Below are positions 30 to 61,035 of a stretch of 64,000 nucleotides of DNA, one piece after another (the stretch's first letter is position 1; every line of letters begins with the position of its first letter). The notes under the pieces are model-generated. The model had not been told where the DNA came from. It ran no database searches and worked only from the letters and a program-made list of their open reading frames with translations. This DNA comes from Glandiceps talaboti (lineage: Eukaryota > Hemichordata > Enteropneusta > Spengelidae): contig NC_135556.1 in NCBI RefSeq assembly GCF_964340395.1, forward strand, positions 16,498,642 through 16,562,641. The letters are read 5' to 3'. The position numbers were made by a program, and so were the translations under genes.

Positions 30-2333
30 CTAGGTTTCATCATAGACCCTCTCCAGGGTTTCACCCTACCACTTCTAATCCATACTGCGTCTTTGTCTTA
101 TCAGCGAGTTCAATCACATTGGTAATCAAACTAAAAGACATGACTCATTACTTCAACTATCTGATGACTCCATCGTGTTCAACCGAGCATGACTAGAAAA
201 GGGTTATCAGCCATTCAATTCAAAGTCTGACTTTCCTTATAAGCTGTATTGCCAATATTCTATCTGAGCTTATATACCATCAGAATATTGAAAAATTACT
301 AATTTAGCTCACAGGAAAAAGATGAAACCACTCACTCTAAAATCTTTTTGCATTATTTCTCTTGGAAAGAGAGCTGAATAGTATGTGTAGTGACATGTAC
401 ACTAGACACAGGTTTGTCTGCAAACTATGGAACAATGATGAGGTTATAGGGAAAGAAGGAACCTCTCCATCAACCTTAGGTTCTTTATTCTGTATCAATT
501 GGCTGAACAGCTTACATATTCCTCATTCTTGGGGGTGGGGGTGTTGTTATTTCTGAATAGATGAATTTACACCAGTCAATGATATATTCATGAATTAATT
601 TCAAAAATAAGGTTCATCATGATATATATAAAGGACATCACTAAAACTACACAAGAGAATGGTGGGTTTTGTTTCAAGATATTTTATTTCAATATTTCAC
701 AAGGTGTCATTGAACTGTAAGTATCGCATTACTATTTCAGTCATGATTATTTGCCCCTGTACACATGTATGGCAAAGTATTACTTCATTATCCATACAAG
801 CTGGCTTGTCTTATCAATTCCATCACTTACTATATTTATGGTTGACGTTCAAAATGAAATAACATTTACTTGTATAATTACAGAAAGATATTTAGTATTC
901 TGAGGATCTATCACTACTTTAACATAGTCTGAGTAGAGAAAACCCACTAAGTGAGTTCTAATTTAAAGTGGCCATAAGGATGACAAATAGCTATTTACTT
1001 TGGATTTCTAATTGACGAACAAACGAACTCAACTGTTTTTTCTTCTTGAAAAAAAAATGTGTTACAAAATATACAACATCAAGTTGATAACTTATTAAAT
1101 TGCAACTATTAAAAAAAAGTGTAAAATAGTTAGTTATTGTATGTACAATAACTAACTTTTTACTAATTTTATAGCTTTCAGTCACAAACACAGAATTGGT
1201 CTATGTTGTTTCACATTATTTTTCGAATGTCAAAAAAAATATAATACAATACAATACAGTTGTTTGATCAATACAAAATCCAAATTAATACCCATTTGAC
1301 ATCTATGTGGCCACTTTTAATGATGATGACCATCATGAATAAACCCAAATGAATACATTCTGAGTTTTTTTACAGTCAATTTTTTTTTACTTATTTTCTA
1401 TTCTAATACTACTTTGACGCTAATATCATGAAACTCTTACATAAATATGATGTATAAATACAAACATTAGACTTCTGAATGTGTGTCACAGCAGACAAGT
1501 AACCCTGTACTAAGAGACACTAAAGACCATTATCTTATACCCAGTATCGATTCCAATGCAATTCAATGGAGAGCACGCACACCGAACCCGGGCAATAATT
1601 TTCCATATCACGCCCCGGCATACTTTGTCCAAATATGGCAAGTGGCACACTCATCGATATCCATTCTCTCAGTGATTTGGCTTTGTTAATTTCTTCACAT
1701 TTTTACATTTTTGCAAATAAAATAATATTTTAGTACCAATTTATGTGATTATGTGATTCAAATGATGTTTTCGTACCACTACATGGGGTATATGATAAAA
1801 CCTGTACAGCCTGGATATGGGTTTTCCAAACCTTGGTAGTACGGCTTACGTTCCCTCCTAGAATCAGGCCCTTCCGCCATACAACCTTGGTCCACGAAAC
1901 CCATATCAGGGCTATATAGATTAATATTAATGAAATACTGTTGACCTTGTATCCTAACATTGCAAGTGACATATCCACTACAGAATGTCAAAGGTGTCAT
2001 TCCAATGTGACTATATTTCACTATCAAATTTTCTTCATGGAACTACTGACAATATATTTTCCAGTGAAAATTTTCATATGTCACATTGTGTTACAACAAA
2101 AAGGTTGATGTCAGTAGCATTTGAAAATCAAACATGACAGCAAACTGTCCAGTATATTCAGCCTTCTGAGATCCATAGATGTCATTTCTTTCTACACAAT
2201 ATGGTAGACCAACTGGATAACAAGCCATTCATTAACCTATTCTGATGTTGTTACTTTCCTATTGGTTACTGTGAACTCATATTCTTTCAGCTACTGTAAA
2301 CTTGTACTTCTATTTACTACTGCATTTCTGTTG
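30..2333. other. Intergenic region downstream of TAF7
   Basis: No convincing exon is seen here. Small open frames lack coding character or flanking splice sites. The main recognisable content is the inverted-repeat element at 966-1318. Around 1800-1920 the plus strand has a short tract reading as Pro/Gly/Tyr-rich peptide broken by stops; I cannot assign it. Confidence 0.6.
966..1318. mobile_element. Foldback MITE, AGTGGCC-ended family, copy 1
   Basis: The ends are inverted copies of AAGTGGCCATA, and a second inverted block (TTTACTTTGGATTT against AAATCCAAATTAATA) lies inside. The centre is a near-perfect palindrome, GTTAGTTATTG against CAATAACTAAC. A related element with the same ends and centre lies at 43371-43730. 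TTAA occurs at both borders here, but because the ends are palindromic the target duplication is ambiguous. No coding capacity is seen, so it would be non-autonomous. Confidence 0.8.
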
Positions 2334-8300: not shown

Positions 8301-11300
8301 TGTGAAAAACAGTTGTTTGAGAAAGCTATAGAAAAGATTGGCCAGGAACAGAAGAATAATCCTATGTAATCCTCATGGCTCCACTGGTAAGGTAACACTA
8401 CTGTGAGAACCTGAGATTGAAACCTTGGCCTTTAACATCACACACTTCTGATGCATGATCTAAATAATATATCCTATTTTGATTGAATTCATTTGTCAAG
8501 AAAATATGGTATGTCATTGTTCGCATGTCACTTCCAAGCTTGACATCTTGAAGTGCTTTGTGACTATAATTCACTGCTATAAAAGACTTGCCTGTCTTCA
8601 TGTTACAAGATTTGACTGCATGTCAGATAAGTACATATCTGGGTGACTAACATAATAGTTCATGCAATCAATACTGCTCTAGAATTGATTTCTGACTATG
8701 CTAGTATAGGGCTAGGTACTTATAGTGCTAACACTGGGCTTACAGGGCCTACTGGAATGGTTAATACCTGCACTAGCTCTACATCTGTATGTTACACCAC
8801 GCTACATGTAGTTCTATGCTAACACTAGGCTGACAATATCATGTCTAATCAGTATGTGTGAGGAACTGGAAAAGCTAATGCCTGCACCAGTCAAATGTCC
8901 ACATGATGTGAACACCAGGCTGGCACTTGCTCAAAACTCAGAAAGGGATTCTTGAACTCTACTTTGTGTAGAAACATAAACCACAATATTATGACATACA
9001 TGTACAGGTGAACCACAAGTTATATTGTAAGAGCAGCATCTGACAGGCCTTAATCTAAAGGTGCTTAATCTATAGGTGAACAGGCAATGGCGGTCACAAT
9101 TGTCTCTACCTTGTTTTACTGACTTCATGTACAATATTGAAAGTGTAGGCACATGTATATTGAACACTGTATACATCTGGATTGAATGGTCATATTTAAT
9201 TTATTTCATTAAAAGTTTTTGTTATCAGGAGAATTCACATACATGTACTATAATTACTCATGATAGGCAAATTGTTAGTGTTACAGCGTGTAACAATATC
9301 ACTAGCAAGTCAGAATGCAATTGGTAATATGAATAAATTACCTGGACACATCTAAATTTACTGTGTATACCAGTAACTATAGGAAACTGTAAACCTGAAA
9401 ATTTTCCCTAAAAACTTTAATATTTCTACTTTAAAATTTCACTGAAAACAAAAATGCAAAAATATGTAGTGACTAAAGGCCTTCTTGTACATAAACACAA
9501 TGTACTAGTCTGGTAATTAGTGAAAATTAGTCTTTGAGAAATAGCTCAAGAATGTAATATCACCAAAGTTTCTACTGGTGACATTGCAATGGTTCTGTGT
9601 AATTCATTAAATGTCGTAACATTGACACTTCGACAGCTCATATAGAAATGTAATTATAAACAGTACTAATACAATGTATGCACACACATTATTGCTTGAA
9701 AAAACATCAGTTTTTGAAATTGAAATCTCAAATGTGGCAAGCTTGAACACCAAATAATGCTGGAAAAATCAGATCTGGTTACTGTCAATGACAATCCTGT
9801 TTGGCTTGTTCGGCTGAGTAATATTTCTGAGGAATGTGTCAAAAACTACAAATGTTACTTTATCTTGTACCACAGAAAAAACTATGACTGTCTTTATGTT
9901 AAATGGTTGGTTCTGTCTGTAGGTCTCTTACAAAGTGTCTTACACATTACATACAGTAACGTGAATATGTGAATCCCTTAGTTGCCATTGGGTGCCGTAG
10001 GGAATCTAGAGCAAGGGAGGGGGGGGGGGGGGGGGGTGATTCATTTTGTCCACTGTATTGTACATGTGAGAATGAATGTTCATGGATTCTGGGTTCATGC
10101 TTAGTAATGAAAATTTCTACTCTGAGTCAAAATATTTCTTGGAAGTGAATCCCAAATTTTCGCTGACGTCTTGTCAGCATCATCAGAGGTCACTCAGGTG
10201 TACTTCTCATTTCACGTGTCTCTTCCGAGACATGTGACAATAGCCCATTGTAGTACACCCCTGATGATACTGACGAGATGATTCACTTCCTGTGAGTATA
10301 AATTTTCATTACTATGTATTGTAAATTTATTGTATTCATCCTTTGTGTTATATTTTCTGTTTCTGACAGTTATTGAAACTATAGAAAAGAGAAAAAAGCA
10401 TAAACATAGTTATGCAAAATACGGTAAACACAACAAATTGAATCCTCTCAGATGTTGAATTTTAGTCAGCTTGCCAAACTGCTGCGATAACATGTAAAAT
10501 TCCTCTAAAATGTTCTCACAGAAATCATGCATAACTTTACATCTTCTCTTGAAAATACAAAATTAATGTATTCAAATGTAAACATGTTACTGCTTAAAAT
10601 TCGGGAGGGGGGGGGGGGGGTTGCAACTCATCCTCCTTCATTCAACATACAACCTGACGCAGTGATTCTTAGTATCAGCTACAAATATTTTCACTGGCCC
10701 ATCATCCTCTATCACAACTATACCCCTGGGGTTGTTGAGTTTATGGGCCTTCTCATCTATGCGACAGACATATTTGCCATTCTGATCAAACTTCTGAACT
10801 CTGCTGTCATCAGTGACATACATGTGCCCACTTTGGCCAAAGCTGATACCTTTGGGATAATGCAATGCTGTACCGGTACCAGAACCTAATTCGTGCTTGA
10901 AGTTGCCATATGCATCATAGACTTGAACGTTATGGCCAGACCTATCTGCCACAAACAGGAAACCTTGAAAATTGAAGGTAATGAAATATGGAGATGACCA
11001 CTTCCCTTTACAAGGATAAATATTAAGAAGCATGCCCTCTTGTGTGAATCTTTTAATCTCAAAACTGACTCTAGTAGCATCAACAACATACACGGTACTA
11101 TCTAAAGGACTTATGGCTATCCCCAAGGGCTTGGACAGCTTGCCATCCCCAAACCATCTAAGCAGCTTCCCGGTTTCATTTATCACTGCTACTTGATGAC
11201 GAGAATCATCCAACACAAAATATACATTGTCTGCTGACACTGCAATGTCACGGGGTTTGACCGTTCGATCTAGCTTAAATTCATTTTTGACATTTCCATG

Positions 11301-14071
11301 TTTGTCAAGAATTTGAAGCCGATCATTACCAGTGTCAGCTACAATGATATCCCTGTGTTTATTGACTGCTAGCCCGGTGGGTTCTTTGAATTGACCCACC
11401 TGACTACCCTTCTTCACTCCTATGGTTTTCACTAACCCACTGATGACAGAGAATTCAAAAGGTGACCCAGGTATGTGTTGATCATCAAATGTCAATGTTA
11501 CTCTGTGTTGGCCATCCATATCACTAGTCACAGTAACAATCTGACTGCCATCTGTAAGAACTTCTGTCGGCAGGGTGACCACTGACCCACTTGGTTTTCT
11601 CAACTCTGCTTTCACGTCTTGAATAGTGATTTGTCTTCCTTCAGTATCTTTCATCTTAACTATCAAGTTCAGAGATTCACCTTTAAGGAGTTTATGTGGT
11701 ATATTCTCAATGCTGCATCTGTTGAGATCAACATCGCTATCAAATACCTGAGACTTCACAGTTTGTTTTTCAAAAAATGCGGTCTGCTCTGTGGGGTGTC
11801 TTTTTGTTTTAGGTGGTAGTGGGGGTACTTTTTGACGGATTATAGCTGGTTCCACTCTGCTAGTATGCTTTGGCTGCCCTTCTTGTTCCTTTGAAAGTCC
11901 TGGCTGAGTGTCAAGTGGATCGTTGTTAACAGCTGGGATTCCTGGCGGCAACATGACTGGGTGTTCCTTTTTCTCCTTCAGAAAACCTTGGCCTGTCTGA
12001 TCTGATGACTCTGTACAAGAATCAGAAAAGAGAGGAACTTGGACACCAAGTAATGAATGTTGTGGCTGTGAATCCTCCACTTGCTGTGGGTTTGATTTCT
12101 TATCAGGTTGCAGTACCTTGCTGATGTCTTTCATTATACCTCTAATGTTCGACAAGACATGAGCCGGAGTGCAATTTTGAACCAGTTTTTCAACATTTCT
12201 GCAAGTGTTCTGTATTGTGCTGTGTTCATACTCTAATTCATCGATCACGACCTCTCTTAGTTTCTTTTCGATTTGATAACCCTTAGTCAGCTCTGCCAGA
12301 GCTCTGGCCTCATCTTCCCGTACTTTCTGGATCATTTCCTCTGTCCTGGCTTTCACATCATCTTTCTTCTTTAGGTGATTGGTTGTCAATTGCTGACATG
12401 CCTGCTTAGCTGTGACAAAAGTTTGATGGGCACACGTTTCCTTTACTTTCAATTCAGTAAGATGTCTGTTTAGTTTGTCTGTAAACCTGTCTGCTGCTTC
12501 TTGTATCTCTTGGTGGACATGTTCTGGAATGCAATGTTTTATAACAATGCACTCTAGGCAGACGAGAACTTCACAGGTGTCACAGAAATATTTAAGCTGA
12601 TTACCTGGGTGAACTGTACAATTCAAAGATGGCTCACAATCTGATGATGGAGTCTTGCGCTCTTCAATGGCGAGAATCCGGTGTGATCGTGTAGATGCAA
12701 TATTTTTATGTATATCAACACAGGACGAGCACAGTATTTGTTGACACTCCTGACACCAATTTGTTGAGATTTTTTGTTGACATCCTTCACACTTTGTGTT
12801 ACTCTTCTTCCCCAGTATTTCACTTCTTCTCTTGAACTCCTCCACAAAATTTTTCATGAAGAAGTTGTTTGGCAGTGCTGACACAAGATCACTAGGTAGT
12901 GGGCAACAGGTTGAACATAATGGACAGATAAGTTCCTTCTTTGGGCCAGCAAGCTGAACTAAGCACTCCTCACAAAAAGTGTGTTGACAAGGCAGAAGTT
13001 TAGGTTTCTTGTACTCGTCAAAACAGATAGCACAGGACAGGAAATCTTCCGTGATACCTTCTAGTACTTGTGTTGCACTAGCCATTTTGAAAGAACATGA
13101 CAAGTTCTGAATATTTCGCTAGAAAGCAAACACTCACGATGCATCACATGACAGGCTCACCTAGACTAGTATATAAATGCTGGATTCTCAATCCTCACAT
13201 ATACTCAAAACAATTAGAGTTGCAAAGAATTTTCAATTGTCAGTAAGTTAAGGTGTACTATGCATATCTACATGTGATGAGAGTCGAGTGCCTATTTATA
13301 ATGAGGTCAAAGGTTATATCTACAGTCCAATATAGTCTGTCAATTGGTAAATGTACAAAGTAAAACAACATGGATTGATGAACTTTAACCTTTGAAGCAA
13401 ATTTTGTAAGAAAAGTCCCTCCTACAAAAATGGGAATTTCAAAACAGCCTTCCAATTTTCTTTATCCGTATTTTTACATCAGTGATTCAATCTTGATAAA
13501 TTCTAAATTAGCAACACACTAAATAAAAGAAACATTGTTTGTACACTGTAGTTGTTATCAACTAAACAATGGATGGTGTCTGATAACAACAGAAATTCTG
13601 TCAATTAGATGAAGATCAATAAACAATTGTTGCTTGGTTCCTAGTCAGCTGTCTAACCCTGTTTGTCACATTCCATTGTTGTCATGTACATGTTATAAAT
13701 ATTATATTATATTGTCTATATGCCTCCGGATGTAAATATTCTATGACAGAAGAATTGAAAGCCCAGTCAAGTCTTTTAATCATCAATTATGTGTTTAAAA
13801 AAAACATGTATTTTAATATTTACATAACAATATTAATTTTCAATATTATCAATATTCTATAAAGCTGTGAAATCTTTTCCATAAATTTATACCAGAATAT
13901 TATTAAGTTCATTATTTGGCTTCAAATACAATCAAGTATTTAAATAACCATTACTCTTACGAAACATTTGTTTAGATTTAGTTGAAACCTCTTTAAATAA
14001 TTTTAAATCATTGTACGTTCCCATTTTTTTTAAAATAGCGTTTTACCTTTGTTGAGACAATGTTTCTGCGC

Positions 14072-18788: not shown

Positions 18789-27531
<8,743 letters not shown>

Positions 27532-35932: not shown

Positions 35933-38900
35933 ATGGAGGAAAGTGGGGAGTATCATAATATGTATCCACAGCCTGGAAGAAATACTGGGTGGCTTGGCAA
36001 CCAGTATGAGGAGGAAGGTAAGTTTTCCTTTTATTTTTTTAAATAGTGCCGTGAGAAGTGACTTATTTTAAATAATATAACTTAAAGTGCATTTTCTTTG
36101 TAGCTGTCCTTTGGGATTATTTGGTGTCTGAAATTTTTGTATTTGATATTTTAAGGCCTAGAGTTGAAAACTAATACTCACAATGATAGGCAATGACCAC
36201 ATAATTGAACACAGACACAGACACAGACACAGACACAGACACAGACACAGACACAGACACACAGTAAATATATGCACAAAGATGCACAGACACAGACACA
36301 GTAAATATATGCACAAAAACACACAGACACAGACACACAGTAAATGTATGCACAAAAATGCACACACAGAGACCCAGACACAAACACACATACACAAGTA
36401 ACTGTATGCACCGAAAAAACACACACACACACACACACACACATGGAGACTCATACATTAGTAAATTAATGCACACACACACACACACACACACACACAA
36501 CATAATTTGTTCCACAATTACAGGCAATCAATCAGTTTTCACATTCTCCTGTCAATTGTTTTTATCTCTGTAGCTTTTGAACCTGAAGACTACAACCAAC
36601 CACTAATCAACATGCCACCTGTATTTGATTTCGAACCTGACTCAGAAGAAAGTGATTCATTTGATGAACCACTAGACTTCAGTTTGAAAACCATGAACGA
36701 AGAAGACAGTCTAGACATAGAACAGAATGAGCCATTGGATTACAGCTGCCGTGGCGCCCTCACAGGTGAAAGTGAACCATGTGACTTACAGATAAATAAC
36801 CCTCCAATTGATTTTACACAAATCCGAATAAAGACAGAACCAATTTCTGACACAGAAGAAGAGCCGGAATCTAATCCTGTGCCAGAGATCGGAGTTTGCA
36901 ATAGCATGGAAACTGTGGATGAACTCAGTGACCCCAAACATAATCAACTTATATGTGTGCAATGTGACAATACAGAAACAGAAGATCTTTATATTACAGT
37001 AACCTGTGGACATGTCAGGTGTCAGCGCTGTATTAGCCGGAAGAAATTCTGTTACTGCATGGTTGATGAAGGTAGGTTAAAAGATGCCAAATTCTAAAAA
37101 AAATTTTGACTGTTTTGTTTCTGTGTGTAAATCCATTGTGACAAGATGAATGGAAGTGTTGCAGTGTGATCAATCTGATTAAAATCCGATGTAGTGTACA
37201 CACATGATTTCTTTTTGGCTGTTACGTTAACTGTTGTTTGTTCTTCTGCGAGTACTCGTTACATACATCTGACACAATACCATAGGTTTTCCCGAGCCAC
37301 ACAAGAGTGCTGAGTGAATTCACTGAACCAATGAAAACATGTAATACACCGAAACATACATTCAGTTGAAAATAGCACGAACAAAGATCGTAAACAACAA
37401 AGTTATTGTTATTGTTTGGTCATTCTCTTTCTTTCAATTTCGAATGTTGAGTGTTATATCGCCGCGAGACAAAAAGTGGCTTAGTGTAAATGTGTTATTC
37501 AATAAAAATACTTAAATGAGAAGATTAATGATATACATTGTATGTTTCATTTCACAGTTAATCTTCAAGGAGCAGAGGATGAAGCAGATAGGAAAGTAAA
37601 TAATGTATCCCATAATGTATCTATTGATACACAAATTGCAACAACAGATGCAGCTGTTGGCACGACTGACATTTCTAAGATGGATGCATCTGTTTCTACT
37701 GTTGAAATTGAAAGCATAGATGTTGCTGTTAACACTGTCCGCATTCCTAGGAGAAATAAATCCACCAAAACTCTGAAGATTCGAACAGCCAATGCTACCT
37801 CTGGGACAGATAACCTTTGGAAACATGATGTCAGCGTTAATACAGATGAAGAACTTGGTGCTCCACATAGCGTTGATGTTTGCATTGGCACATCTGACAA
37901 AGCCTTCCCGCATGTCGATGCATGTGTTGGAGGAAATAATCCTGCATTCATTTGTACAGCGAATGTTTATGTTGAAACTGAAGGTGCTAGCTTACTAAAA
38001 GATGCTGCTGTTTTAACAGAGAGATCATATGGTACCCTTACAACTGCTGATGTTGCTGTTGAAACTTATGCAAATGTATCAGACAAAGCCACGGATATTG
38101 ATGCAGATGAGATTGCTGTTGCCACAACAGATGTTGCAGTTGAGACTATTGCATTTGTATCAGACAAAGCTACGGATATTGATGCAGATGAGATTGCTGT
38201 TGCCACAACAGATGTTGCAGTGGAGACTGTTGCATTTGTATCAGACAAAGCTACGGATATTGATGTAGATGAGATTGCTGTTGCCACAACAGATGTTGCA
38301 GTTGAGACTATTGCATTTGTATCAGACAAAGCTACGGATATTGATGCAGATGAGATTGCTGTTGCCACAACAGATGTTGCAGTGGAGACTATTGCATTTG
38401 TATCAGACAAAGCCACGGATATTGATGCCGATGAGATTGCTGTTGCCACAACAGATGTTGCAGTTGAGACTGTTGCATTTGTATCAGACAAAGCTACGGA
38501 TATTGATGCAGATGAGATTGCTGTTGCCACAACAGATGTTGCCGTGGAGACTGTTGCATTTGTATCAGACAAAGCTACGGATATTGATGCAGATGAGATT
38601 GCTGTTGCCACAACAGATGTTGGAGTTGAGACTGTTGCATTTGTATCAGACAAAGCTACGGATATTGATGCAAATGAGATTGCCATTGCAACATCCGATG
38701 TTTCAGTTGAAACTATTGCATTTGTGTCGGACAAAGCGACCGATATTGATCCTGATGAAATTTCTGTTGCAGTAATTGATGTTGCAGTTGAAACTGATTC
38801 TTTGGTAACAGACAAAGCTACCTTTGTGGATAAAACTGCCTTTCATGTTGCTGTTTCTGATGTTGCCATAGAAACAGATGCTGTTGTGTCAGACAAGGAA

Positions 38901-41900
38901 ACATTTATTGATGAAAGTGTCTTTGCAGTTGAAGTGACTGATGTAGCGATTGAAACTGATGCTGTTGTATCAGACAAATCAACATTTGTGGACAAAACTT
39001 CCTTTAGTGTTGCAGTCTCTGATGTTGCCATAGAAACAGATGCTGTTGTGTCAGATAAAGCAACTTTTGTGGATAAATCTGAATTTAGAGTTGCAGTGAC
39101 GGAAGTTGCAGTTGAAACTGAACCTACAGTATTTGAAAAATCAACCTGTATTGAGGATACTGCATTTGCAGTTGAAGTGACTGATGTAGCAATTGAAACA
39201 GATGCTGTTGTGAGAGACAAGGAAACCTGTATCGAGGAAAATGCTTTTGCAGTTGAAGTGACTGATGTAGCAATTGAAACAGATGCTGTTGTGAGAGACA
39301 AGGAAACCTGTATTGAGGAAAATGCTTTTGCAGTTGAAGTGACTGATGTAGCAATTGAAACAGATGCTGTTGTGAGAGACAAGGAAACCTGTATCGAGGA
39401 AAATGCTTTTGCAGTTGAAGTGACTGATGTAGCAATTGAAACAGATGCTGTTGTGAGAGACAAGGAAACCTGTATTGAGGAAAATGCTTTTGCAGTTGAA
39501 GTGACTGATGTAGCAATTGAAACAGATGCTGTTGTGTCAGATAAAGCAACCTTTGTGGATAAATCTGAATTTAGAGTTGCAGTGACTGAAGCTGCAGTTG
39601 AAACTGAACCTACAGTATTTGAAAAAGCAACCTGTATTGAGGATACTGCATTTGCTGTTGAAGTTTGTACTGCTGCAGTTGAAACAGATGCCATAGTATT
39701 TGACAAAACAACAAGTATAGATGATGGAGAACTTAAAGTTGCTGTAATTGATGTTGCCATGGAAACTGAACCTACAGGATATGACAAAGAAACTTACATC
39801 AGCAAATCTGATTTTTATGTCACGACTATGAATGTTGCTGTTGAAACAGATGCAGTATTATGTGATAAAACAACTTCCATTGATCAATCTGCATTTGCTG
39901 TCGAAGTAAGTGATGTTGCAGTCGAAACAGATGCTTTTGTGTCAGACAAGACGAATATTGCTAAAGGCGACTTTCAGATTGCAGTTGCAGATATTTCAAT
40001 CAATAAAGATGGTTTTCTAACAGATCCACTGTCCAATGATAGAGATATAGATAACGAATATTATACTTTAGTACCAAAGAAAAGAACCAATGCTAAAAAC
40101 CCTAAGCCTTCCATAGTAGTACGTAATACATCGATTGCATCTGATGGTGCCCTTTCTCCCCCATCCTCACCCACTGGTGCTGTTGATTACAATTATACCT
40201 CTGATGACAGTGTAGATGCAACTGACCTGGATGCCACGCCTTCACTAATAGCTCTTAATACAGATGTTAGCAAACCTACTGCCATTCCAACCTTTATTGG
40301 TGCCAAAGAAACAGTCTCCACAACTGTTACGAGAAAGAAACGGAGACTTCAGAATTCCAAAGAGTCAAAGTACGAAAATAATTTGTCATCAGAAGCTGAG
40401 AGTACATTGGATCTAGTGTCAAATGTGAATGCGACAGATGTTTATGAAAAAACTGCAGTTATTAACAAGACATCTTTGAATGGTGGTGAGGATTTGTCAC
40501 GGGAAGCCTCGCAGGGTATGTATGGTGACAACAACAGGTTTATTTCAAGAAAGAGAAAACCAAATCCAGTTGATGAAATGGAAGTGAAAAAACCCAAGCA
40601 AATCATTATAATGAATGGCTATAGTGACAAAATGTGTAGAACGAGTAGATACGAGTCTAGAACACAGAAGAAATACAAAAACTTAAATGTCCATGAGCAA
40701 GGCACTGAAGATAAAATAGAAGATGAATTAGATGATCCGACAAGACGGCATAGAATAGCACTAGTGCGAGCATTTCTCCTGGCAAACTACAAGTGTACAC
40801 CAGATAGCACAGAGATTATGAAACGATCACAGCTCCTCGCTGAGTTTGATAAATACTGTGAAGACCATGGCTTCAAGGATCATGTGTACATTGATATATT
40901 TGCAATGACGTATGCGGTGACAACTACATTCAATGACTGCGATTACAGTGGTAAGTGGAAGCGCTTCATAGGAATAGAGAAAGCCTCACCTGTACCTATT
41001 TTGGCATTATTCAAACCAGGCACAGTGCTAGAAATGGCAGATTTCCAAACAGCAGCCATAGACTTCTTTGCACGAAACTATGAAATATGCCCAAACAGTG
41101 CAGTAAGTGCTGACTCTGTTGTTGATTTGTTACTACAAGAATGTCAAGAAAGGGAGCTTAAACTTCCACCGTCACTGTCAAGTCGGACAAATTTACAACG
41201 AGATCTTTGCTTACACAGATGTAATGCTTTATTCTTTAATTGTCTGTATGATGAAAAAACTGCAATGGTGCATGGAATTAGAAGAACACCTGAACCGAAA
41301 CCAGACAGTGAAGTTAGTGATGAAGCAGAAGCCAGTAAAGATGACAAAACAGGAAAATCACAGAAACTTATAGATGGAGAAACAAGTGACAAGGAACATA
41401 CAACAGATAGTTCAGAGGAATCAGCTGCAAAGTACCAAGAAAGCCCAGAAGATGATGGAATTAAAGTTACAACCCGAGACATCTTTGAAAGTTTATTCCG
41501 AGCATTTGTACTTGTATATTACCAATGTTCTGATGACTCAGAAGCCAAGATAGTGCCTAAATCAGTAGAAAGAGAATTTAGAAGACAGTTCCTGCATGAA
41601 GGTCGCAACAAATACCCTATCACAATATTACATGGATTACGTCTTGTCGGTATCATACAGAATACCTTTCCCAAGTGTAAAATTGTCCAAGGGTGTTTCA
41701 CTAAGCTCGAACACAAAAAACCTAACGAGGTGGCACCCTTGGTTAACATGTTAAAGCAATTACATGGTGATAGCGATCACGATTTCTTAACCTTGACCAC
41801 ACATTATATCAGTAAGAATTTCAAGGGAAGAGAGAAGAGTAAACTCCGTGTCTCAGTCATGTTGGATATGCTAAAGGCTCACTGTGAACGGCACAACTAT

Positions 41901-42206
41901 GCTATACCCGAAGCCTATGAAGATGAGGACAAAACATACAAAATCCTCGGTTTGATATGTGAAGCATTCTTCAGAGAGTGTGAGTATGATGAAAAGCTAT
42001 TCACCATCTATGGAGTTACTAAGGATGATGATCAGAGGAAGAGGAAGGGAGCCGGCAACTTATCTTTTGTTAGAATAAGGCTGGAAAGATTGGATGTCGG
42101 TGTACAAGGACGATGTAACATTCATTCTATTACCCCACACAGGATACTCGAACAAAAGGAACGGTTACTAAAACAAACATGTCAACCAAATACCTTAAAA
42201 TCATAA
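35933..42206 (+). CDS. Large repeat protein: RING-like cluster, 24 x 27-residue repeat, four RFX-like domains
   Basis: Coding exons 35933-36017, 36574-37071 and 37558-42206 join in phase (1743 residues); the start ATG has A at -3 and G at +4. I do not recognise the protein as a whole. Residues 30-194 are acidic with EPLDFSLKT, EPLDYSCRG and PIDFTQ motifs and RIKTEP, then a RING-like ligand series CVQC..CGH..CQRC..CYC that is short for a true RING. Residues 354-1000 are 24 tandem repeats of 27 residues (type VAVETxAFVSDKATDID). A basic/acidic linker follows. Residues about 1255-1690 hold four degenerate copies of an 85-residue domain (starting FxxxNYxCxPDS, ending CxYDEKxxxxxGI) that resembles RFX winged helices. 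Nuclear DNA-associated function is inferred. AATAAA at 43071 is a possible poly(A) signal. Confidence 0.85.
36209..36499 (+). repeat. (ACAGAC)n and (CA)n microsatellites
   Basis: ACAGAC repeats, then a sub-repeat containing AGTAAATATATGCACAAA in several copies, then CA runs, all in the intron between the first two coding exons of the large repeat protein. Confidence 0.95.
38034..39974 (+). repeat. Coding minisatellite: 24 tandem 81-bp units
   Basis: Twenty-three units of 81 bp and one of 78 bp encode the 27-residue repeat without a frameshift. Units 1-9 are of one type (SDKATDIDADEI) and nearly identical. Units 15-18 are of another (RDKETCIEENAF) and nearly identical. The rest are more diverged. 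Silent differences alternate between neighbours within both homogeneous blocks. Confidence 0.95.
40740..42035 (+). other. Region coding four RFX-like winged-helix repeats
   Basis: Copies at about 40741-40965, 41020-41282, 41469-41712 and 41779-42030. Shared pattern: a helix with F..NY.C or VYYQC, a basic/hydrophobic helix, a third helix ending F..C.Y/F, then DEK..hydrophobic..GI/GV. The second copy (FARNYE..SAVSADSV..LLLQEC....LKLPP..HGIR) is the closest to the RFX pattern. This is a by-eye family assignment. Confidence 0.45.
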
Positions 42207-47386: not shown

Positions 47387-47832
47387 TTAAGGTACATAAC
47401 AAGGTTGCAATGCATTAGTGATCAGCTCGAGTAATTCCTCAAAGAATACTTGGTCCTCCCGAGTTGCTTTGTACCCGATGTAATCCATACAGACATGTGA
47501 TGGGAGCAGAGATTCTTTGATCCTGATAACGTCCCTATGTGTGTTATCCATAAAAATATGAATAACGTTACAAGTATCTTTGTGGTGAAGGTATGCAAGT
47601 TCCCTTTCATCTTCACATCTTTTGTCTTGTGCCGAAAACCTGCTGATAAGAACTATATTGACGGGGCAGTTTTTAATGTAGGTTGCGTTCTCGTCTCCGT
47701 TGGTGTAAGCATTGACTTTAACATAGCGAGGGTATTCTGAGTTCTGTAGAACACGAACCAGGCTATCCTTCACCCAGTCATTGTCTCGTTGACTACAGTT
47801 GACGTAGATATCATAAAGTGCTGGGCTATCCT
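47387..47832 (-). CDS. TIR-domain exon of paralogue A
   Basis: 147 residues. Box 1 is YDIYVNCSQRDNDWV, followed by NCPVNIVLISRFSAQ and CEDERELAYLHH, where a Glu falls near the position of the catalytic Glu in NAD-cleaving TIRs. The end, FFEELLELI, matches the last TIR helix. The exon joins the preceding 61-bp exon in phase 1. Confidence 0.85.
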
Positions 47833-50800
47833 CTGAAATATATATATAAAAAGGTTGGAAAATGAGGGAGGGGGGGGGGGTCAATTACATTTGTATTTAC
47901 TGTTTTCAAAACGTGTCTGTGAGATATCATAAACCCCCGAGAACTTTCATCTGATGATTAATTGATGAAAACGAAAGAATTATTAAAGATAAACGTACCT
48001 TCTACTCTTTCCTGGCGAGTGTCACGAATATTCGACATCCTGTCAAGGGTTACTCCAGGCTTGGATAAGGAAAGACAAATATTACAAAATACATAAAATT
48101 ATGATAAAAACAACGATAATGCCAGCCACAACTCAAGATTGAAACGTCTATGTAGTTTATTCCTCTAGTTTGGGTATTATGATCATTACACAGATGTTAC
48201 TGCCTAAACATGGGCTTTTTACGCATGAAGATCTTAAGTTATATGCCTGGTATGGAGGGGGGGGGGCAAATGACATCCCGATCAGAAGGAGTAATTAAAC
48301 GTTCATGGGGAGTTTTTAAAATGTTTATTACATGCAGAATGAACGTTTATATTGCTATGGGATGTGGTTAATGAACGTTTACAATTTAGACTTAGATTGC
48401 CAAGTTTTGAGATTATCGCGTAATAAGTCGCAATTTATTTAATTTATAATTTGTCTCGTATATTAACCATTTGCGATATAAATTTGACTTGTCTGGCAAG
48501 TATCCATGTAGTCTATCAGCTAGCCCTCGGATGTTCTTCCGATAAAATACGACACACAGCCGAACAACGCTATGAACTTCGTTCGCTTATAGTTATAGCA
48601 TCGAAAGAAAGCCCGAACGTCTAGCAGCAAGACTAGTATCCATGGTGCAATATATATCCTGTCTATATTGCAACATGTAATATAGATGCACTGCACACTT
48701 GACAAAATATTCGACTTACATTTTCATCCCAGTTAGTTGGAATTAATCTGATCTGTTGGGGTGCTCTGCAAAATGCAGTGACGGTTGATCCAATGGCTGG
48801 AAATTCATCTTCTTGGGTACACAGTGGTAGAATATGCAGTACATTCTCACTCATGGCGCCCTCATGTGGAGATGGGAATTGACAGAGACAGCCACATCGA
48901 TATTTGAGGTCTGGAAACTCCCTGCAACGTATTGCTTGGACGTAGGAATTCAGTCTACCGATGAGTCTATACGGGTTGGATCCTTGCACCAAGCCAACGT
49001 CGACACTGATAAGATGTTGTTCTGGTGACTGCTCCTTTAAAACGATTCTGAAAGAGAATTCTTCAGTGGTGAATCTTCCAATGTTATGGTACACCTTGTA
49101 ATGACGTGAGATCTGGATGCACCTGGAAACAAGTCTTGAATATATTGAATCTGGTTTGAAGAATCCAAAATCAAAATAGAACCGTTTAGCTTGTGCAGGA
49201 CTAAGATCGTCTGGATCTCCGTTGTAGACAGGTCTCATAGATGGAATTATGTATTCATCAACCTTAAAACCGTGTGGTGGACATAATATTCTTCCTAGAG
49301 GACACAGGAAATCGTAGCACTGAAGAAGTGTAACGAGTACACCTGGGTAATCTGTGATGGTATCCAATAAGCTTTCAAGAAGCTGGTGATGAATAAAACC
49401 ATCGCTGGCAAGACGGTTCCATTTACTTGCGAGAGTTGGCATTCTGTCCCTCTCTTCGGGTACGTTAACAATCAGTTTGAAAGCATCTATAAGAAGCCGG
49501 GGATTCATCAACACAAAATGTCGTAGCACCTCGTCGCTGTTGATGTAGATTACGTGACCGGTATCATGGAAGAATTGCAGCATACGAACCATCTCTTCCC
49601 TGCTTTTGATACCACAGTGTTTTTGTGCATATTCAAAGATATCCTTAAATGGTATAAATCCCTTCAAGTTCACGGACGCTGGGCATTTCAACTTGCGCAA
49701 AACTGACATCAGTCTTATCCAACACGCCGATTGCTTTACAGAACTTCCTTGGAGTATACTTTTAAATCTGAGCCAACGAACTGGAAAAGACTTTTCAGTG
49801 CTGTCAATGGCCATACATCGTTTTCGTATTTCAGATTGCAGCTTCTTTACATCTTCATCAGAACGTATAGAGTTTTCAATAACCCAGAGAGGTGTATTGT
49901 CCAAGTTGATCACTAGACGGTTGCAGTACATAGAGTTCGAAGCATACAACATCCTCTTCAAATAGTCCGCAACTGTATGTCTAAAATTTGCACTGACCGT
50001 GTCCCTATGTGTTCCAACGATGAAAATTAACGAGTTTGGGTTCGATGTGTGTGTACTTATTGAGTGAAGCCAAAAAAGGAGGCGTGTCATCACACCTTCT
50101 ATTGATTCTGCACATTTGACTAGATTGAAAACTACCAGGAATATCGCACGTGAAGCTATGAAAACATGATGCGTGTTGTAGTAAAGCTCGTCGCCAGGGA
50201 AATCCCAAAGGCTCAGTTTCACAGGAAGGCTTGATCTTTTGAATTCTTTTAAACTCATAACATGTTGAGTGACGTATCTAACAGGTACCTTACTACCAGT
50301 CTCTGCATTCTTTGAAAGGTACAACTCAGTCGCTAAAATGAACAAAGAAGAAACACCTGCAATAACCGAAGATGTCGTTAAAGAAGTCGGTAGAGTATAT
50401 CCACACATATGAGCAACCCATAATCCAAACAATGTATGTATTGGGAAGAAGATGGGAGCACTGAGATGTAAAATACCGGTCACTGTGGGTCCGAACTCCA
50501 CTCCGAGAGATATTCCGAAAACAATCAGAGTGTGAGAGGTCACAGTGTACACAGACAACCTAGAGATAGTTGGTGTCATGAATCCAAATGAAATCAGTAA
50601 TGATAGCAAGATAACCACGACAACCATGGCCCATTTTAACTTTCGCCACATTGTAAAAGTGTTGAAATTCTTTCCACGAAGCTTTATGTACGTTTTGTGT
50701 GCAAGGAACCCAACAACTTGACCTGTCATTATTGTCATTTGAAATTCGAAAGAAGGGATAGCTCCATACCTGTCGTCGCATGGGGCCAACAGGAGTGAAA

Positions 50801-51557
50801 ATCCAAATAACACCTTATGGATAATACTCGTACTTAAAAGTATACCGAGGAGAAATCCACCAATTACTGTACAACAATATACTCCGCATATCAATACATA
50901 TGACGATTCTGTCGTATGGTTAACAATTGCATGTATATACTTTTCATTGAAATTACAAAGTTTTTCGATACACACAAGAGCCAACGACAATCCTGTGGCA
51001 AGTTTGTACGAAGTTGTTTTGTCTGCAAACAATGCAAATGTGATAAAAATTGTGGCTAGCGACATCACAAATCTGTTCTCCATTGGGAAGTTCAAAGCCA
51101 AGATTATGTTTAATTCTGCACAAAAAGAAAACAGAAGAAAAATGAGCAGAAACCCACAAAGGCCCATTCGCTCCTGAGTATTTTCACGTTTACTGTTTTC
51201 TTCTATCACTGTCTTTGCAAGTAACCATGACATCTTGTCTCGGTACTCATTTTGATCTGATTTGATATATTTCCATTTTTCATCAACATCAACAGATTTA
51301 CACATCCGTGTATCCACACCTACGGTCTTGCCTTCATTAGGATCAAAATTTTCACCCATGAGTTTCTTCCTTAAGCTAGTCTTTCCGGCACCAGCATCAC
51401 CAAGGATTTGGACCTTGACATCATTCCGTGGCAAACTACCACACTTTTCTAAGTATTCGGATTTCTCTTGAAGAAAGTTATTGAAAATCAAATAGCCAGC
51501 GTCATGGGGATTAATTAAATTAAATTGTCGCCATAGTCTCCTGAGATATTGTTCCAT
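47387..51557 (-). CDS. Roc-COR-TIR protein with membrane-split GTPase domain, paralogue A
   Basis: Coding exons 51557-48720, 48059-47999 and 47832-47387 join in phase (1114 residues). Residues 53-60 are the P-loop GDAGAGKT, and T78 in GKTVGVDT may be switch I. Residues about 131-415 are strongly hydrophobic, with eight to ten predicted membrane spans. The GTPase then resumes: LSLWDFPGDELYYNTHHVFI (switch II, about 448-467), IFIVGTHRD (G4, about 511-519), then a COR domain (about 590-900: RMLQFFHDTGHVIYI, LMNPRLLIDAF, RPVY). The last exon is a TIR domain starting YDIYVNCSQRDNDWV. The usual Gln after DxxG is Asp. An acceptor (TTTCAG) sits two bases before the ATG, so an upstream exon exists and may be coding. 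Likely a membrane signalling GTPase; partners are unknown. Confidence 0.88.
47999..48059 (-). CDS. Linker mini-exon of paralogue A
   Basis: 61 bp encoding PGVTLDRMSNIRDTRQERVE between COR and TIR. It is flanked by a usable acceptor and a GTACGT donor. The matching exon in paralogue B has diverged much more than the flanking exons. Confidence 0.7.
48509..48635. mobile_element. MITE with TAGTCT ends and 9-bp target duplication, copy 2
   Basis: Same ends as 45889-46044 and a similar interior (CGGATGTTCTTCCGATA, GAACTTCGTTCGCTTATAG). It is flanked by the direct repeat GTATCCATG (48500-48508 and 48636-48644). It sits in the first intron after the main exon of paralogue A. Confidence 0.88.
50300..51170 (-). 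other. Segment coding the membrane module inserted in the Roc domain (A)
   Basis: Hydrophobic stretches include CGFLLIFLLFSFCAELNIIL, SYKLATGLSLALVCIEKL, VIGGFLLGILLSTSI, KWAMVVVVILLSLLISFGFM, TLIVFGISLGVEFG and SVIAGVSSLFILATELYL. The segment lies between the P-loop/switch I half and the switch II half of the GTPase, without an intron. Confidence 0.85.
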
Positions 51558-51637
51558 TTCTGAAAGTGACAGATCAAAGAACTGTGTCATAATTAAGTAC
51601 ATCCTCTTTTTGAAACTTGGTAGATCGCGAATTCATG

Positions 51638-51812
51638 ACATACATACATACATACATACATACATACATACATACATACATACATACATACATACATACA
51701 TACAAGTTCCATATGCATTTCTTTATACATACATACATACATACATACATACATACATACATACATACATACATACATACATACATACATACATACATAC
51801 ATACACACACAC
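51638..51812. repeat. (ACAT)n microsatellite
   Basis: ACAT repeats in two blocks just upstream of the acceptor of the main exon of paralogue A. Confidence 0.97.
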
Positions 51813-52350
51813 AAACAAACACATATACACACGGCCATCACTAAAATTTACATGTAGTAAAATAGAAAATCGTGCCACACATGGTTTCCTGGTGTTTACT
51901 TTTGATTTCCTTTACCAGGAAGACAGCAGAACATTCGTGACTTTACATGTGATTTCCTTATTTTCCTTTTTAAATACTTCTGTGTATCCCACTAAGATGT
52001 AGCACATCTAAGACAGGGGTGGGGCAGTGTCTTAATGAAATTATTTCATTCAACAAAGCAATCAGTTCATCTGATACGTTTGATTGACAGTTGTCATTGG
52101 TGTATATTGTTGGGTTGATAGTAATATGTTTGCTCGAGTGTGCTATCATCATAAAAATCGTCTTACACTTCCAAGTTAAACCCTCATCGCAGACTGAAAC
52201 AACCCAAAATTTCAGAGGTCATATCGTGATTATATCCCTGAGAAATCAACTGTCTCATGAAGCTTCAATTAATAAACTAATTGTCTTGCCATTTCTTGCC
52301 CTACTATGTGGATAAAATTGTCCCACCTATTTTAGAGTATATCTGGTGTG

Positions 52351-56897: not shown

Positions 56898-57325
56898 TTA
56901 TCCCCGTAACACATTGCTGATCAGCTCTAGTAATTCTTCATAAAATACTTGCTCCTCCCCAGTAGTTTTGTACTTGATATAATCCAAGCAAACATGCGAA
57001 GGGAGGAGAGCCTTTTTTATCTTGGTAACCATCTCATGTTTGTCGTTCAAAATGTGGATGACACTCGAACTCTCATGGTAAAGATATGCCAATTCTCTGT
57101 CTTCTTCACATCGTCCATCCTTTGCCGAAAATCTGTTGACTAGAAGGATTTTTACAGGACAGTTTTTGATGTAGGCCGAATTCTCTTCCCGATTCGTGTA
57201 CGAATTAACCTTAACATAAAGAGGCCATTCAGTATTTTGCAGAATACGTAGTAATGTATCTTTTACCCAGACATCGTCGCGTTGGCTACAACTGATATAG
57301 ATGTCATATAGGGCTGGATTATCAG
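56898..57325 (-). CDS. TIR-domain exon of paralogue B
   Basis: 141 residues. YDIYISCSQRDDVWVKDTLL at the start, NCPVKILLVNRFSAKDGRCE and DRELAYLYHES in the middle, YEELLELISNVLRG at the end. The acceptor TTGTAG gives phase 1 with the mini-exon ending at 57649. A CA microsatellite (57411-57441) lies in the preceding intron. Confidence 0.85.
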
Positions 57326-57446: not shown

Positions 57447-60400
57447 CCACCTTCACAGAAGGAACATTATGTATGGGGCTTTCAAATGTATTAGTTTCGC
57501 ATGTGTTATATTGCTGACACAATCTTCAACGACATGTATGGGTAGTCCTATACCAAATCTAAGTTACAATAGTGACAAATATCAAGAAGCATAAACATGA
57601 TAAACATGCTGTAATAAACATAAGTACACAATGACTGGATATACGAACCTGGACGTGCCTCACCTATTCTCTGACAACAGTCATGGCTCAACATCCCTAG
57701 GCCTGGCTCATCATGTAAGGTCTGATGGCGGGATACACGAATACAAATAAAAGATACTAAGACATGCATGTATACAAATATATGTATGTACAGTGATGCA
57801 AATCGTTGCCATGTTACCGAAACAAAACAGGATGCCAAAGTAGTGCTTCTCCTAAAGTAGGATACACCAAACTGAGTGTCAAAAGAAAGGCCCAATTCGG
57901 ATAGAGATGGACAAAGACAGATAGTATATAGCGACCATTGTCTCAGTAATTATGCATATAGTATAAAAGTAGTAATCTACACGGCAAGACAGGTAAACGA
58001 TATTGTCAAACATTCCTGTCGTTGTAGACTAACACTCTACAAAGTTAAAGTTTGGCTATATTTCATTTCTTCCCTATGTAAACTCGAGGTACAGTATTAT
58101 TCTCAATTTATTAATTTCAAATTCTAAACAAATGCCATTTAGATGCACTTTAACTTACCCCTTCTTTCCAATTAGTTGATGTTAGTTCGATACTTTGAGG
58201 TGCTCCCTGACAAAGTTTAGTAACTGTTGAACCCATGGCTGGAAAATCATCCCCATGGTTACAAAGAGGAAGAACATGGAGTGCGTCCTCACTTGTGACA
58301 TCTTCATGTGGAGGTGGGAATTGACAAAGAACACCGCATCGGTATATTAAGTCCGGAAATTCCCGGCTACGAATTGCTTGAATATACGCATTCAGCCTAC
58401 TGACAAGTTCATATGGATTAGACCCCTGCACCAACGCTACGGTAACTACTATGAAATGTTGTTCAGGTGAGTGTTCTGTTAAATCGACTCTGAAAGAATA
58501 ACCTTCAAGTGTAAATCTTCCAACGTTGCGGTATACTTTGAAATATTGTGAGATCTGGATACATCTCGACACGAGTCTTGAAAATATTGAATCAGGTCTA
58601 AAGAATCCAAAATCGAAATAGAGCCTTTTGAAGGGCTGAACAGGACCAAGCCTATCGGAATCGTCCTTGTATATGGGTCTCATAGATGGAATGATGTATT
58701 CGTCAACCATAAACCCGTGTGGTGGCGATGCTATTCTTCCTAAGGGACACAGAAAATCATAACACTGAAGAAGTGTCAGAAGTACACGAGTGTGTTCCGT
58801 GATGCTTTCTAATAAATTTTGAAGAAGCTTATGGTGAATGATGCCATCTTTGGATAGACGGTTCCACTTAGAAGCAAGACTAGGTTTTCTGTCCTTCTCT
58901 TGGGGTATGTTTACAATCAATTTGAAAGCGTCGATAAGCAACCTTGGATTCATCAGCACAAATTGTCTCAGTATTGGGTCATTACTGATGTAGATCAAGT
59001 GACCGGTGTCATGGAAGAATTGCAGCATACGAACCACCTCTTCTCTGGTTTCGACACCACAGTGTTTTTGAGAGTAATCAAACACGTCCTTAAAAGGCAA
59101 AATGCCCTTATCATAGACATCATCTACGCTTTCTGGGTTCCAAAGGGTTGACACTATGCGTGACAGTGTGGCATAAAGACCTGGTACACCAACCGTTGTG
59201 TTTACTGCAATTTCTCTTTTGAGCAAGCTTTTAAATTTGAGCCAGCGAACAGGATATGTGTTTTCGTCGTCATCGATGGCCAAACAACGCCCTCGAATGG
59301 CAGTTTGAAGTTCCTTTACGTCGTTATCAGTTGACATGGAGTTTTCAACCACCCAGAGAGGAGTATTGTCCGAGTTAATGACGAGACGATTACAGTACAT
59401 AGAGTTGGTATCATACAGTGTCTTCTTCAAATACCTTGCAACGTTTTGCCTTATAGTGTTGTCAACAGAGTCTCTGTGGGTTCCAACGATGAATATTAAC
59501 GAATTCGAATTTAATGTATGTGTACAAATAGAATGAAGCCAAAAAAGAAGGCGCTGAACAACACTTTCTATAGATTCAATGTCTGCACATTCAGCTAGAC
59601 TAAACACAACCAAAAATATGGCACGTGAAGCTATGAAAACTTGATGCGTGTTATAGAAGAAGTCGTCACCAGCAAAATCCCAGAGGCTAAGTTTTACTGG
59701 AAGGCTGGTCCTTTTCAGTTCCCTTTGGTCGATGACATGCTTCGTAACAAATCGAATGGGTACCTGATGACCAGTTTCTGCAGTTTTCGAACGGTACATC
59801 TCAATGGATAAGATAAATAAGCCAGAAACAACTGCCAAGAACGAATTTATAGTGAACGTGATTGGCGGTTTATAACCACATATGTAAGCAATAACTATAC
59901 CAACTACTACTCTTATTGGCCAAAGGAAAGGTCTACCTAGACGAAAGACACCGTTAATGGTTGGTCCAAATTCTACACCTAGTGACATCCCGAAAACTAG
60001 CAAAGTGTTGGACATACACGTGTACACAAACACTTCTGATAACCATGGTGTTAAAAATCTGACGAGAACCAGTAATGCCAGTATAATGACTTGAACGAGA
60101 ACGGCACACCCGAACTTTATCCAAAATGACAACCTGTTTAGATGTTCTCCTCTGAGATAAATGTAAATCTTATGCACTGTGTATCCACTACCAAAGCCGA
60201 TCACCAATGCTGACATGTCGTCATAGAAAGATAGCGCTGGGTTGGGAAGAATGTCTTTACTATAAGATGGGACGAGCATAGTTGAAAAAACAATCAACAT
60301 ACCATTGCAAAAACTCGTACTCAGAATCACCCCAATGAAAAATCCACCAAATGATGTGGAACCATAAACAAAGCATACCAACAACTTGGATATCTGTGGA

Positions 60401-61035
60401 TCCATAAATGTATGCACAAATTCTTTATTGAAGTAATACAGCTTTTCGATAAACACCAGTGCCAATGAAAATCCTGCTGCCAGCTTATAAGAAATGGTTG
60501 TGCTTGAAAACAATCGGAAGGTCAGGAACAGCGATACATATGACAAGACAAATCTATTAGCAAAGTGAAAGTTTAAAGCAAGGATTATGTTTGCAGATAA
60601 AGAGAATACGATTAGGAGACTTATCACCAGGAAACCAACAAGGCTCCCTCTCTGGTCAGTGTTCAGACTTCCATTACTATCCTCTATCACACTCTTTGCA
60701 ATTAACCATGATAATTTATACTTGTATTCATCCTCTTCTGAACTTATCTGTCGCCATCTCTCGTCGACATCAACAGATTCACACATCTGAGTGTCTACGC
60801 CAACAGTCTTTCCTTCTTTCGGATCAAATTTTTCACCCATGAGTTTCTTTCTTAGGCTAGTCTTCCCTACACCAGCATCACCAAGGAGTTGGACTTTGAC
60901 ATCACTTCTGGGAAGGTTCCCGAACCTTTCCGCATTTTTATATCTCGCTTGAATTGTGTTGCCGGACGCTAAATTACCTGCATCATGGGGATCAATCAGA
61001 TGAAACTGCCAAAGTCTCGACAGATATCCCCTCAT
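56898..61035 (-). CDS. Roc-COR-TIR protein with membrane-split GTPase domain, paralogue B
   Basis: Coding exons 61035-58159, 57721-57649 and 57325-56898 join in phase (1125 residues). The exon layout is identical to paralogue A. P-loop GDAGVGKT (residues 52-59), GKTVGVDT, a hydrophobic module of about 290 residues (GFLVISLLIVFSLSANIILA, FGGFFIGVILSTS, AVLVQVIILALLVLVRFL, LLVFGMSLGVEFG, FLAVVSGLFILSIEMY), then LSLWDFAGDDFFYNTHQVFI, IFIVGTHRDSV, and COR (RMLQFFHDTGHLIYI, LMNPRLLIDAFKLIVN, EYIIPSMRPIY). The TIR domain (YDIYISCSQRDDVWV) is on the last exon. Gln after DxxG is again Asp. An acceptor (TTTCAG|AT) directly precedes the ATG, so the true 5' end is further upstream. It is a tandem duplicate of the neighbouring gene on the same strand. 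Confidence 0.88.
57649..57721 (-). CDS. Linker mini-exon of paralogue B
   Basis: 73 bp encoding 24 residues (TLHDEPGLGMLSHDCCQRIG and four more) with a GTTCGT donor. It occupies the same position and phase as the 61-bp exon of paralogue A. Confidence 0.65.
59760..60660 (-). other. Segment coding the membrane module inserted in the Roc domain (B)
   Basis: Same position as in paralogue A, between switch I and switch II, with eight to ten hydrophobic segments. Conserved marks across both copies include NIILALNF, YKLA.G.SLALV.IEKL, FGISLGVEFGPT-like and CGY. Confidence 0.85.

Follow-up and report, generated by a model that had tools for sequence, protein, structure and literature searches.

A putative integral-membrane Roco protein of the acorn worm Glandiceps talaboti, with a Roc GTPase domain split by a predicted ten-span insert

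This report concerns gene A, a minus-strand gene in a 64,000-nucleotide stretch of the genome of the acorn worm Glandiceps talaboti (contig NC_135556.1, forward-strand positions 16,498,642 to 16,562,641), and the protein family to which it belongs. The whole stretch is referred to here as the window, and coordinates are counted from its first letter. Gene A has a single uninterrupted frame of 979 codons (48663-51602, minus strand), whose first exon (48720..51557) encodes, from N to C terminus, the first half of a Roc GTPase domain, a membrane insert, the second half of Roc and a COR region. The exon starts at Met16 of the frame, which is open to 51602, and this start (51557) is probably correct because the first methionine of a tandem paralogue, gene B, aligns with it. 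An ACAT tandem array of 192 bp (51638-51829) lies directly upstream. The exon frame ends before the TIR domain, and a consensus donor, GTAAGT, stands at 48719, in phase 0, after codon 961. Beyond it, a 61-nt linker exon (PGVTLDRMSNIRDTRQERVE; 47999-48059, minus strand) is predicted from AG/GT sites and from phases that match those of gene B, and a third predicted exon (47387-47832, minus strand) supplies the TIR domain and the stop codon. The three exons join in frame, with phases as in gene B, to give a predicted product of 1129 residues from the first methionine.

Numbered in the 979-residue frame and all on the minus strand, the N half of Roc (residues 61-106; 51285..51422) comprises β1, the P-loop helix, switch I with Thr93, and β2, the strands being those of an AlphaFold2 model (61-68 and 102-106) and Pfam matching Roc in two stretches. 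The P-loop (G1) reads GDAGAGKT at residues 68-75 (51378..51401), and G68, G73, K74 and T75 are invariant across 11 rows of the family alignment. The insert (residues 107-459; 50226..51284) occupies the β2-β3 turn and contains ten hydrophobic helices at about residues 146-435 (50298-51167), both assignments coming from AlphaFold2 models and hydropathy. Roc then resumes with its C half (residues 460-600; 49803..50225), in which β3 carries DFPGD (residues 467-471; 50190-50204) and G4 reads GTHRD, so that G1 to G4 are all kept; the motifs were read from the frame. The Pfam match to Roc has E=1.7e-18, with its best stretch at 434-534. The COR region (residues 601-961; 48720..49802) follows directly, with a COR-A match at 628-787 (E=1e-7, 32.4 bits, against a curated cut-off of 35.3) and fold matches to LRRK1, LRRK2 and Roco that reach residues 904-961. 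In the separate frame 47387-47884, TIR_2 is matched at E=1.3e-4 (22.8 bits, cut-off 28), and a TIR profile run on gene A gave E=2.9e-4, also under its curated cut-off. The seven other family TIRs align with exon 3, and family TIRs align to the separate frame at 42-65 % identity. A Pfam scan found no leucine-rich repeat (LRR) or kinase match in gene A. An earlier note, made from the letters alone, had placed the P-loop at residues 53-60 and DxxG at 452-455 from the methionine at 51557, which agrees exactly with the frame, and had put the motifs 400 residues apart with some 285 mostly hydrophobic residues between them, where 399 (68-75 to 467-470) and about 290, again mostly hydrophobic, were measured. 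The order that it proposed, namely Roc, membrane module, Roc, COR and TIR, was likewise borne out by the Pfam matches (COR-A and TIR_2 being under cut-off) and by exons that can be joined in frame.

Gene B, which has the same architecture with DFAGD and GTHRD, consists of exon 1 (58159..61035, minus strand; 59 % identical to A and covering the first 686 residues of the protein model P0001), exon 2 (TLHDEPGLGMLSHDCCQRI; 57664..57721, minus strand) and exon 3, which holds the TIR domain, recognized in the family TIR alignment, and the stop (56898..57325, minus strand). Joined, these exons reproduce P0001, the NCBI model of gene B (Glandiceps talaboti LOC144438639 isoform X2), at 847/847 residues. 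Aligned over 964 columns, the two genes show 59 % identity, the insert being in frame and included. Within the insert they encode the same residue at 45.8 % of codons, with Ka (nonsynonymous divergence) 0.43 and Ks (synonymous divergence) 1.5; Ka/Ks is about 0.29 for the insert, 0.12-0.14 for the Roc halves and 0.20 for COR, with Ks near saturation throughout the comparison. Gaps between the two inserts are whole codons, and neither insert contains a GTRAGT donor.

A search of the whole 590-Mb Glandiceps talaboti assembly yielded 49 matches, many of them partial, and 20 further loci were fetched besides A and B. By a scripted pattern, a single open frame containing P-loop and DxxG is present at 14 of these 20, the motifs being separated by 374-434 residues with 7-10 hydrophobic peaks; the 14 include L028 although its frame has only 501 residues; L014, in which the P-loop and DFYG (DFYGD) were recognized by eye 388 residues apart, is a fifteenth locus with both. 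Frames of 943-984 residues are open at L014, L015, L018 and L021. In the L014 region (match L008) four stops were counted in the genome search, yet P-loop and DFYG stand there in an open frame of 945 residues. The genome search also located a third tandem copy just to the right of the window (C9:16564533-16567454, C9 being the contig on which the window lies), and its locus, L009 (C9:16560533-16568454), keeps the P-loop, the insert and DxxG together in a frame of 993 residues, with no TIR exon found within 4 kb downstream. Were the hydrophobic stretch an intron or a chance read-through, mature Roc would be contiguous, and the isoform X2 of gene B, which is without the N half, could be cited for this. 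The proposal was rejected because the insert is under purifying selection, its gaps comprise whole codons, and the frame is open at 14 of the 20 further loci; with no GTRAGT donor in either insert, and with the stretch retained by Ptychodera, Branchiostoma and Lingula proteins, we give it next to no credence. Decay of gene A into a functionless copy, to which its absence from the 16 proteins returned by the protein search and the loss of G motifs or frame in some family members might point, is hardly more credible, in that gene A retains G1 to G4, an open frame, splice sites and its TIR.

The insert is not confined to Glandiceps: insert-bearing relatives were found in Ptychodera flava (P0002-4, P0008), Branchiostoma (P0009, P0011) and the brachiopod Lingula (P0010), and an insert at the same place occurs in corals. 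The insert keeps its length and profile similarity from hemichordates to brachiopod and amphioxus, the hemichordate-amphioxus insert rows matching those of Lingula P0010 and amphioxus P0011 in hhalign at E 5.9e-7 (global) and 2.1e-5 (local). Among nine relatives scanned, COR-A is above the Pfam cut-off in P0002, P0007, P0009, P0010 and P0111 and below it in P0001, P0008, P0031 and P0016. The same searches returned nine spanless Roc proteins with 43-263 residues between the motifs. Five of these (P0012-P0016) have 136-263 hydrophilic residues from P-loop to DxxG and no hydrophobic peak; on the strength of such long loops, the site between β2 and β3 is tolerant, length alone being common there and spans not, and to judge from these sequences the turn looks like a general insertion site in Roc.

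Hydropathy was averaged over a family alignment of 26 sequences, which includes 17 of the 20 fetched loci (L011, L026 and L028 were dropped as broken or short) and leaves out P0005 and P0006, whose genes appear to be L013 and L010. Ten peaks result, at residues 152, 178, 201, 236, 255, 283, 324, 352, 386 and 410; the family consensus has ten separate hydrophobic 19-mers between the motifs, and two AlphaFold2 models, one of the gene A protein and one of the insert alone, both place ten helices at these peaks. With both ends of the insert in the cytosol, mean lysine plus arginine (K+R) is 13.3 in cytosolic loops vs 4.2 in the others, a split equalled or beaten by 3.7 % of all loop-label assignments. 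The even number of spans that had been predicted is thus ten in the bilaterian set, and hydropathy and loop charge favour an even count with both ends cytosolic, as support rather than proof. Insertion into a membrane in the cell would be expected from these sequence properties.

The models were aligned to known structures, and in that of the gene A protein the two Roc halves close into one G domain, 170/173 residues of Rab33 being aligned at 2.7 A over the span 58..599, and COR follows the closed domain, the RocCOR structure 4wnr being matched over 314/323. Since both ends of the membrane domain are favoured to be cytosolic, the halves would come together on the cytosolic side and there complete a G domain of normal fold, in keeping with the suggestion that the two would fold together on one face of the membrane; such a domain would presumably bind GTP. 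The same suggestion put the insert between the switches, which is correct and can now be narrowed to the β2-β3 (interswitch) turn. For the insert alone, no structure match rose above background, scores being at chance level for helical bundles; the best Pfam match for that of gene A has E 0.33, and no internal repeat was found. These results tell against a transporter or channel for which Roc-COR would be the regulatory or effector module, and we consider that arrangement improbable.

A second clade is made up of the coral-type proteins. With P0031 as query, 253 proteins matched at E<=1e-6; the 120 matches listed include Porites lobata P0085 and Oculina patagonica P0111. Of the 120 coral-type proteins examined (P0017-37, P0043-141), 112 have the motifs 370-445 residues apart, motif counts being made without P0086, P0088, P0089, P0091, P0095, P0109, P0110 and P0128, which have no P-loop or a gap outside 340-460. 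The shorter gaps (285 and 287) and 4-5 peaks of P0109 and P0110 speak against a fixed span count. The insert sits at the same place in Roc as in bilaterians, and the coral consensus shows eight strong hydropathy peaks after a weak one (124-142, 1.0). By hydropathy the coral-type insert probably has eight spans, and on that reading cytosolic loops sum to K+R 15.4 vs 4.5; counting the weak peak as a span would make the total odd, so the predicted even number extends to corals only if that peak is not one. Homology of the bilaterian and coral inserts was considered but finds no support in profile comparison (hhalign E 0.54, 0.23 and 0.27-0.35). In a tree built on Roc and COR columns only, bilaterian rows form one group (98/98) and coral rows another (98/99), and both clades together with spanless P0016 are split from the other eight spanless rows (branch 99/98). 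P0016 is a long branch, and therefore one gain with loss, or two gains, are both compatible with the tree.

Where an adaptor was detected at the C terminus, it is either of two. TIR is found in A, B, P0002-4, P0007, L011 and L013, and Death in P0008-10 and beside L016, L017, L020, L023, L024 and L027; at the 20 fetched loci, tblastn with six queries (E 0.01) detected TIR at two and Death at six. The TIR_2 match of P0007 (1.1e-5, 26.4 bits) is also under the cut-off of 28. In seven of eight family TIRs the residue three positions beyond the Cys of the RC pair is Glu, gene B having Asp, and this Glu is not diagnostic of a TIR NADase. The exchange of TIR and Death, the tandem copies and the large copy numbers would fit an immune or cell-death receptor family, a role proposed because of the known roles of TIR and Death domains.

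Comparison with known systems places gene A beside the Roco proteins (LRRK1, LRRK2, DAPK1, MASL1/MFHAS1 and bacterial Roco), with which it shares the Roc G motifs, COR after Roc, and both folds. In the Roco structures matched, Roc is contiguous, whereas that of gene A is split in sequence; with 399 residues between its motifs, gene A is therefore a Roco variant and not an ordinary member. We know of no polytopic domain inside the Roc of Roco proteins, and a literature search, outside which most subscription journals lay, found no description of a Roc or other Ras-like GTPase split by a polytopic domain. Other membrane GTPases, such as FeoB, also combine a G domain with a polytopic one in a single chain, where the two stand in series and are not nested. 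KAP proteins, which include Kidins220/ARMS and PifA, carry few spans, and Pfam includes a KAP model; no KAP match was among the Pfam matches of genes A and B at E 1 or better. In the KAP family transmembrane segments are inserted within the P-loop NTPase (nucleoside triphosphatase) domain (by the title of Aravind et al. 2004, cited in PMC8195603). The principle of inserted spans is common to gene A, whose predicted helices likewise lie inside an NTPase domain; KAP NTPases are ATPases (PMC8195603), whereas the G domain of gene A is of the Ras-like GTPase type. In sea anemones, the protein of 'Novel Gene 1' (NG1) combines LRR, Roc/Ras, COR and TIR_2 (passages of PMC5094078), and so shares with gene A the union of Roc, COR and TIR_2 in a single chain; NG1 differs in having LRR, and the passages describe no spans or split Roc in it and do not state the place of its TIR. 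They also describe anthozoan transmembrane NOD-like receptors (NLRs) with 3-5 N-terminal spans (PMC5094078), likewise membrane-tied immune-type NTPases, whose spans are N-terminal and not inside the NTPase. A combination of Roc, COR and TIR in a single protein thus has a precedent, as do immune NTPases bound to the membrane.

Taken as a whole, the explanation that we consider on balance the better bet is an integral-membrane Roco GTPase with a split Roc that would be gated through its interswitch hairpin and have TIR or Death as output. Its parts differ in strength. The architecture is held with high confidence, namely β1, P-loop, switch I, β2, ten-span domain, β3, switch II, the rest of Roc, COR and adaptor, in that predicted order. 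Signalling by the adaptor close to the membrane is fairly likely: the nucleotide state would change COR dimerization, which would cluster TIR or Death and so feed innate immune or cell-death signalling. Gating is a tentative proposal. The interswitch hairpin of Arf-type GTPases moves with nucleotide state; because the membrane domain sits in the β2-β3 hairpin, which connects the two switches, a shift of its first and last helices could pull on switch I and switch II, and these two helices might act as levers that set the nucleotide state in response to a ligand, lipid or mechanical change. A bolder version, which we think unlikely, makes the β2-β3 turn a docking port into which unrelated polytopic domains (bilaterian ten-span, coral eight-span) would have been plugged by animals at least twice independently, creating a class of receptors whose membrane domain, mechanically nested in the GTPase, gates it via the interswitch and is served by interchangeable TIR and Death outputs.

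The main rival to the gated Roco GTPase is that the insert is a passive anchor only, which places an ordinary Roc-COR-TIR/Death switch on the membrane with no sensing or gating. In the A/B comparison the insert is the part that changes fastest, as a passive anchor also would; span number seems to differ by clade (10 vs 8) with no detectable sequence similarity, and the spanless P0012-P0016 accommodate long hydrophilic loops at the corresponding position. Set against this, ten spans inside the interswitch hairpin are odd when one terminal helix would suffice, and purifying selection on the insert is accompanied by length and profile similarity kept from hemichordates to brachiopod and amphioxus, so that we judge mere anchoring rather unlikely. 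Together with the rapid change of the insert, several further points weigh against the gated, membrane-embedded GTPase. Model confidence is moderate (predicted local distance difference test, pLDDT, 75.9; predicted template modelling score, pTM, 0.67), with pLDDT below 50 in switch I (91-100) and in the stretch before the first span (140-152), and coupling of bundle and hairpin therefore lies outside what the model shows. Helix 260-270, the fifth hydrophobic segment, is short and is the weakest of the spans; were it not to cross, the count would drop to nine, which would turn the last three K/R-rich loops outward and leave the two halves of Roc on opposite sides. Isoform X2 of gene B begins inside the insert, and gene B may accordingly have alternative products. 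DxxG is lost in 3 of 19 aligned same-genome copies (L015, L018 and L021), and the final Asp of G4 is present in none of the 112 coral-type proteins counted (GTQRG 49, GTHRG 40, GTQRR 17, GTHKG 3, GTHRE 1, none found 2), so that their nucleotide specificity may differ. At 12 of the 20 fetched loci, the third tandem copy included, the tblastn search detected no exon for TIR or for Death, and the domain scan found neither in the coral proteins P0031 and P0111. As a separate observation, L015, L018 and L021 keep a long open frame and the membrane insert despite the loss of DxxG; judged by sequence, they are possible nucleotide-dead regulators.

The protein of gene A is probably a membrane-embedded Roc-COR signalling switch, its function probably lying in innate immunity, and the data suggest that an LRRK2-related switch, with a sensor or anchor embedded in the membrane at its core, would drive immune or cell-death signalling. 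Ras-like switches normally reach membranes via lipid tails or separate domains; here a ten-span domain sits within the very segment that links the two switches, so that an event at the membrane could act directly on the nucleotide state, which would provide a natural case in which to test interswitch coupling in a family that includes LRRK2. The proteins amount to a large family in animals, with TIR or Death as output, that was not found in the literature searched, and suggest a membrane receptor class of invertebrate immunity that is expanded in corals and acorn worms.

Elsewhere in the window, a plus-strand frame of 1554 codons (37542-42206) has no Pfam match better than E 0.09; its N-terminal half contains about 20 copies of a 27-residue repeat, and 81-bp tandem arrays occupy 38049-38821 and 38766-39664 within it. 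On the minus strand, 10638-13103 encodes an 821-aa protein with RING, B-box, filamin and NHL domains (Pfam), which we take to be of TRIM2/3/71 type, and 26737-27531 on the plus strand is an exon of a NIPA-type magnesium transporter (Pfam E=2e-58).

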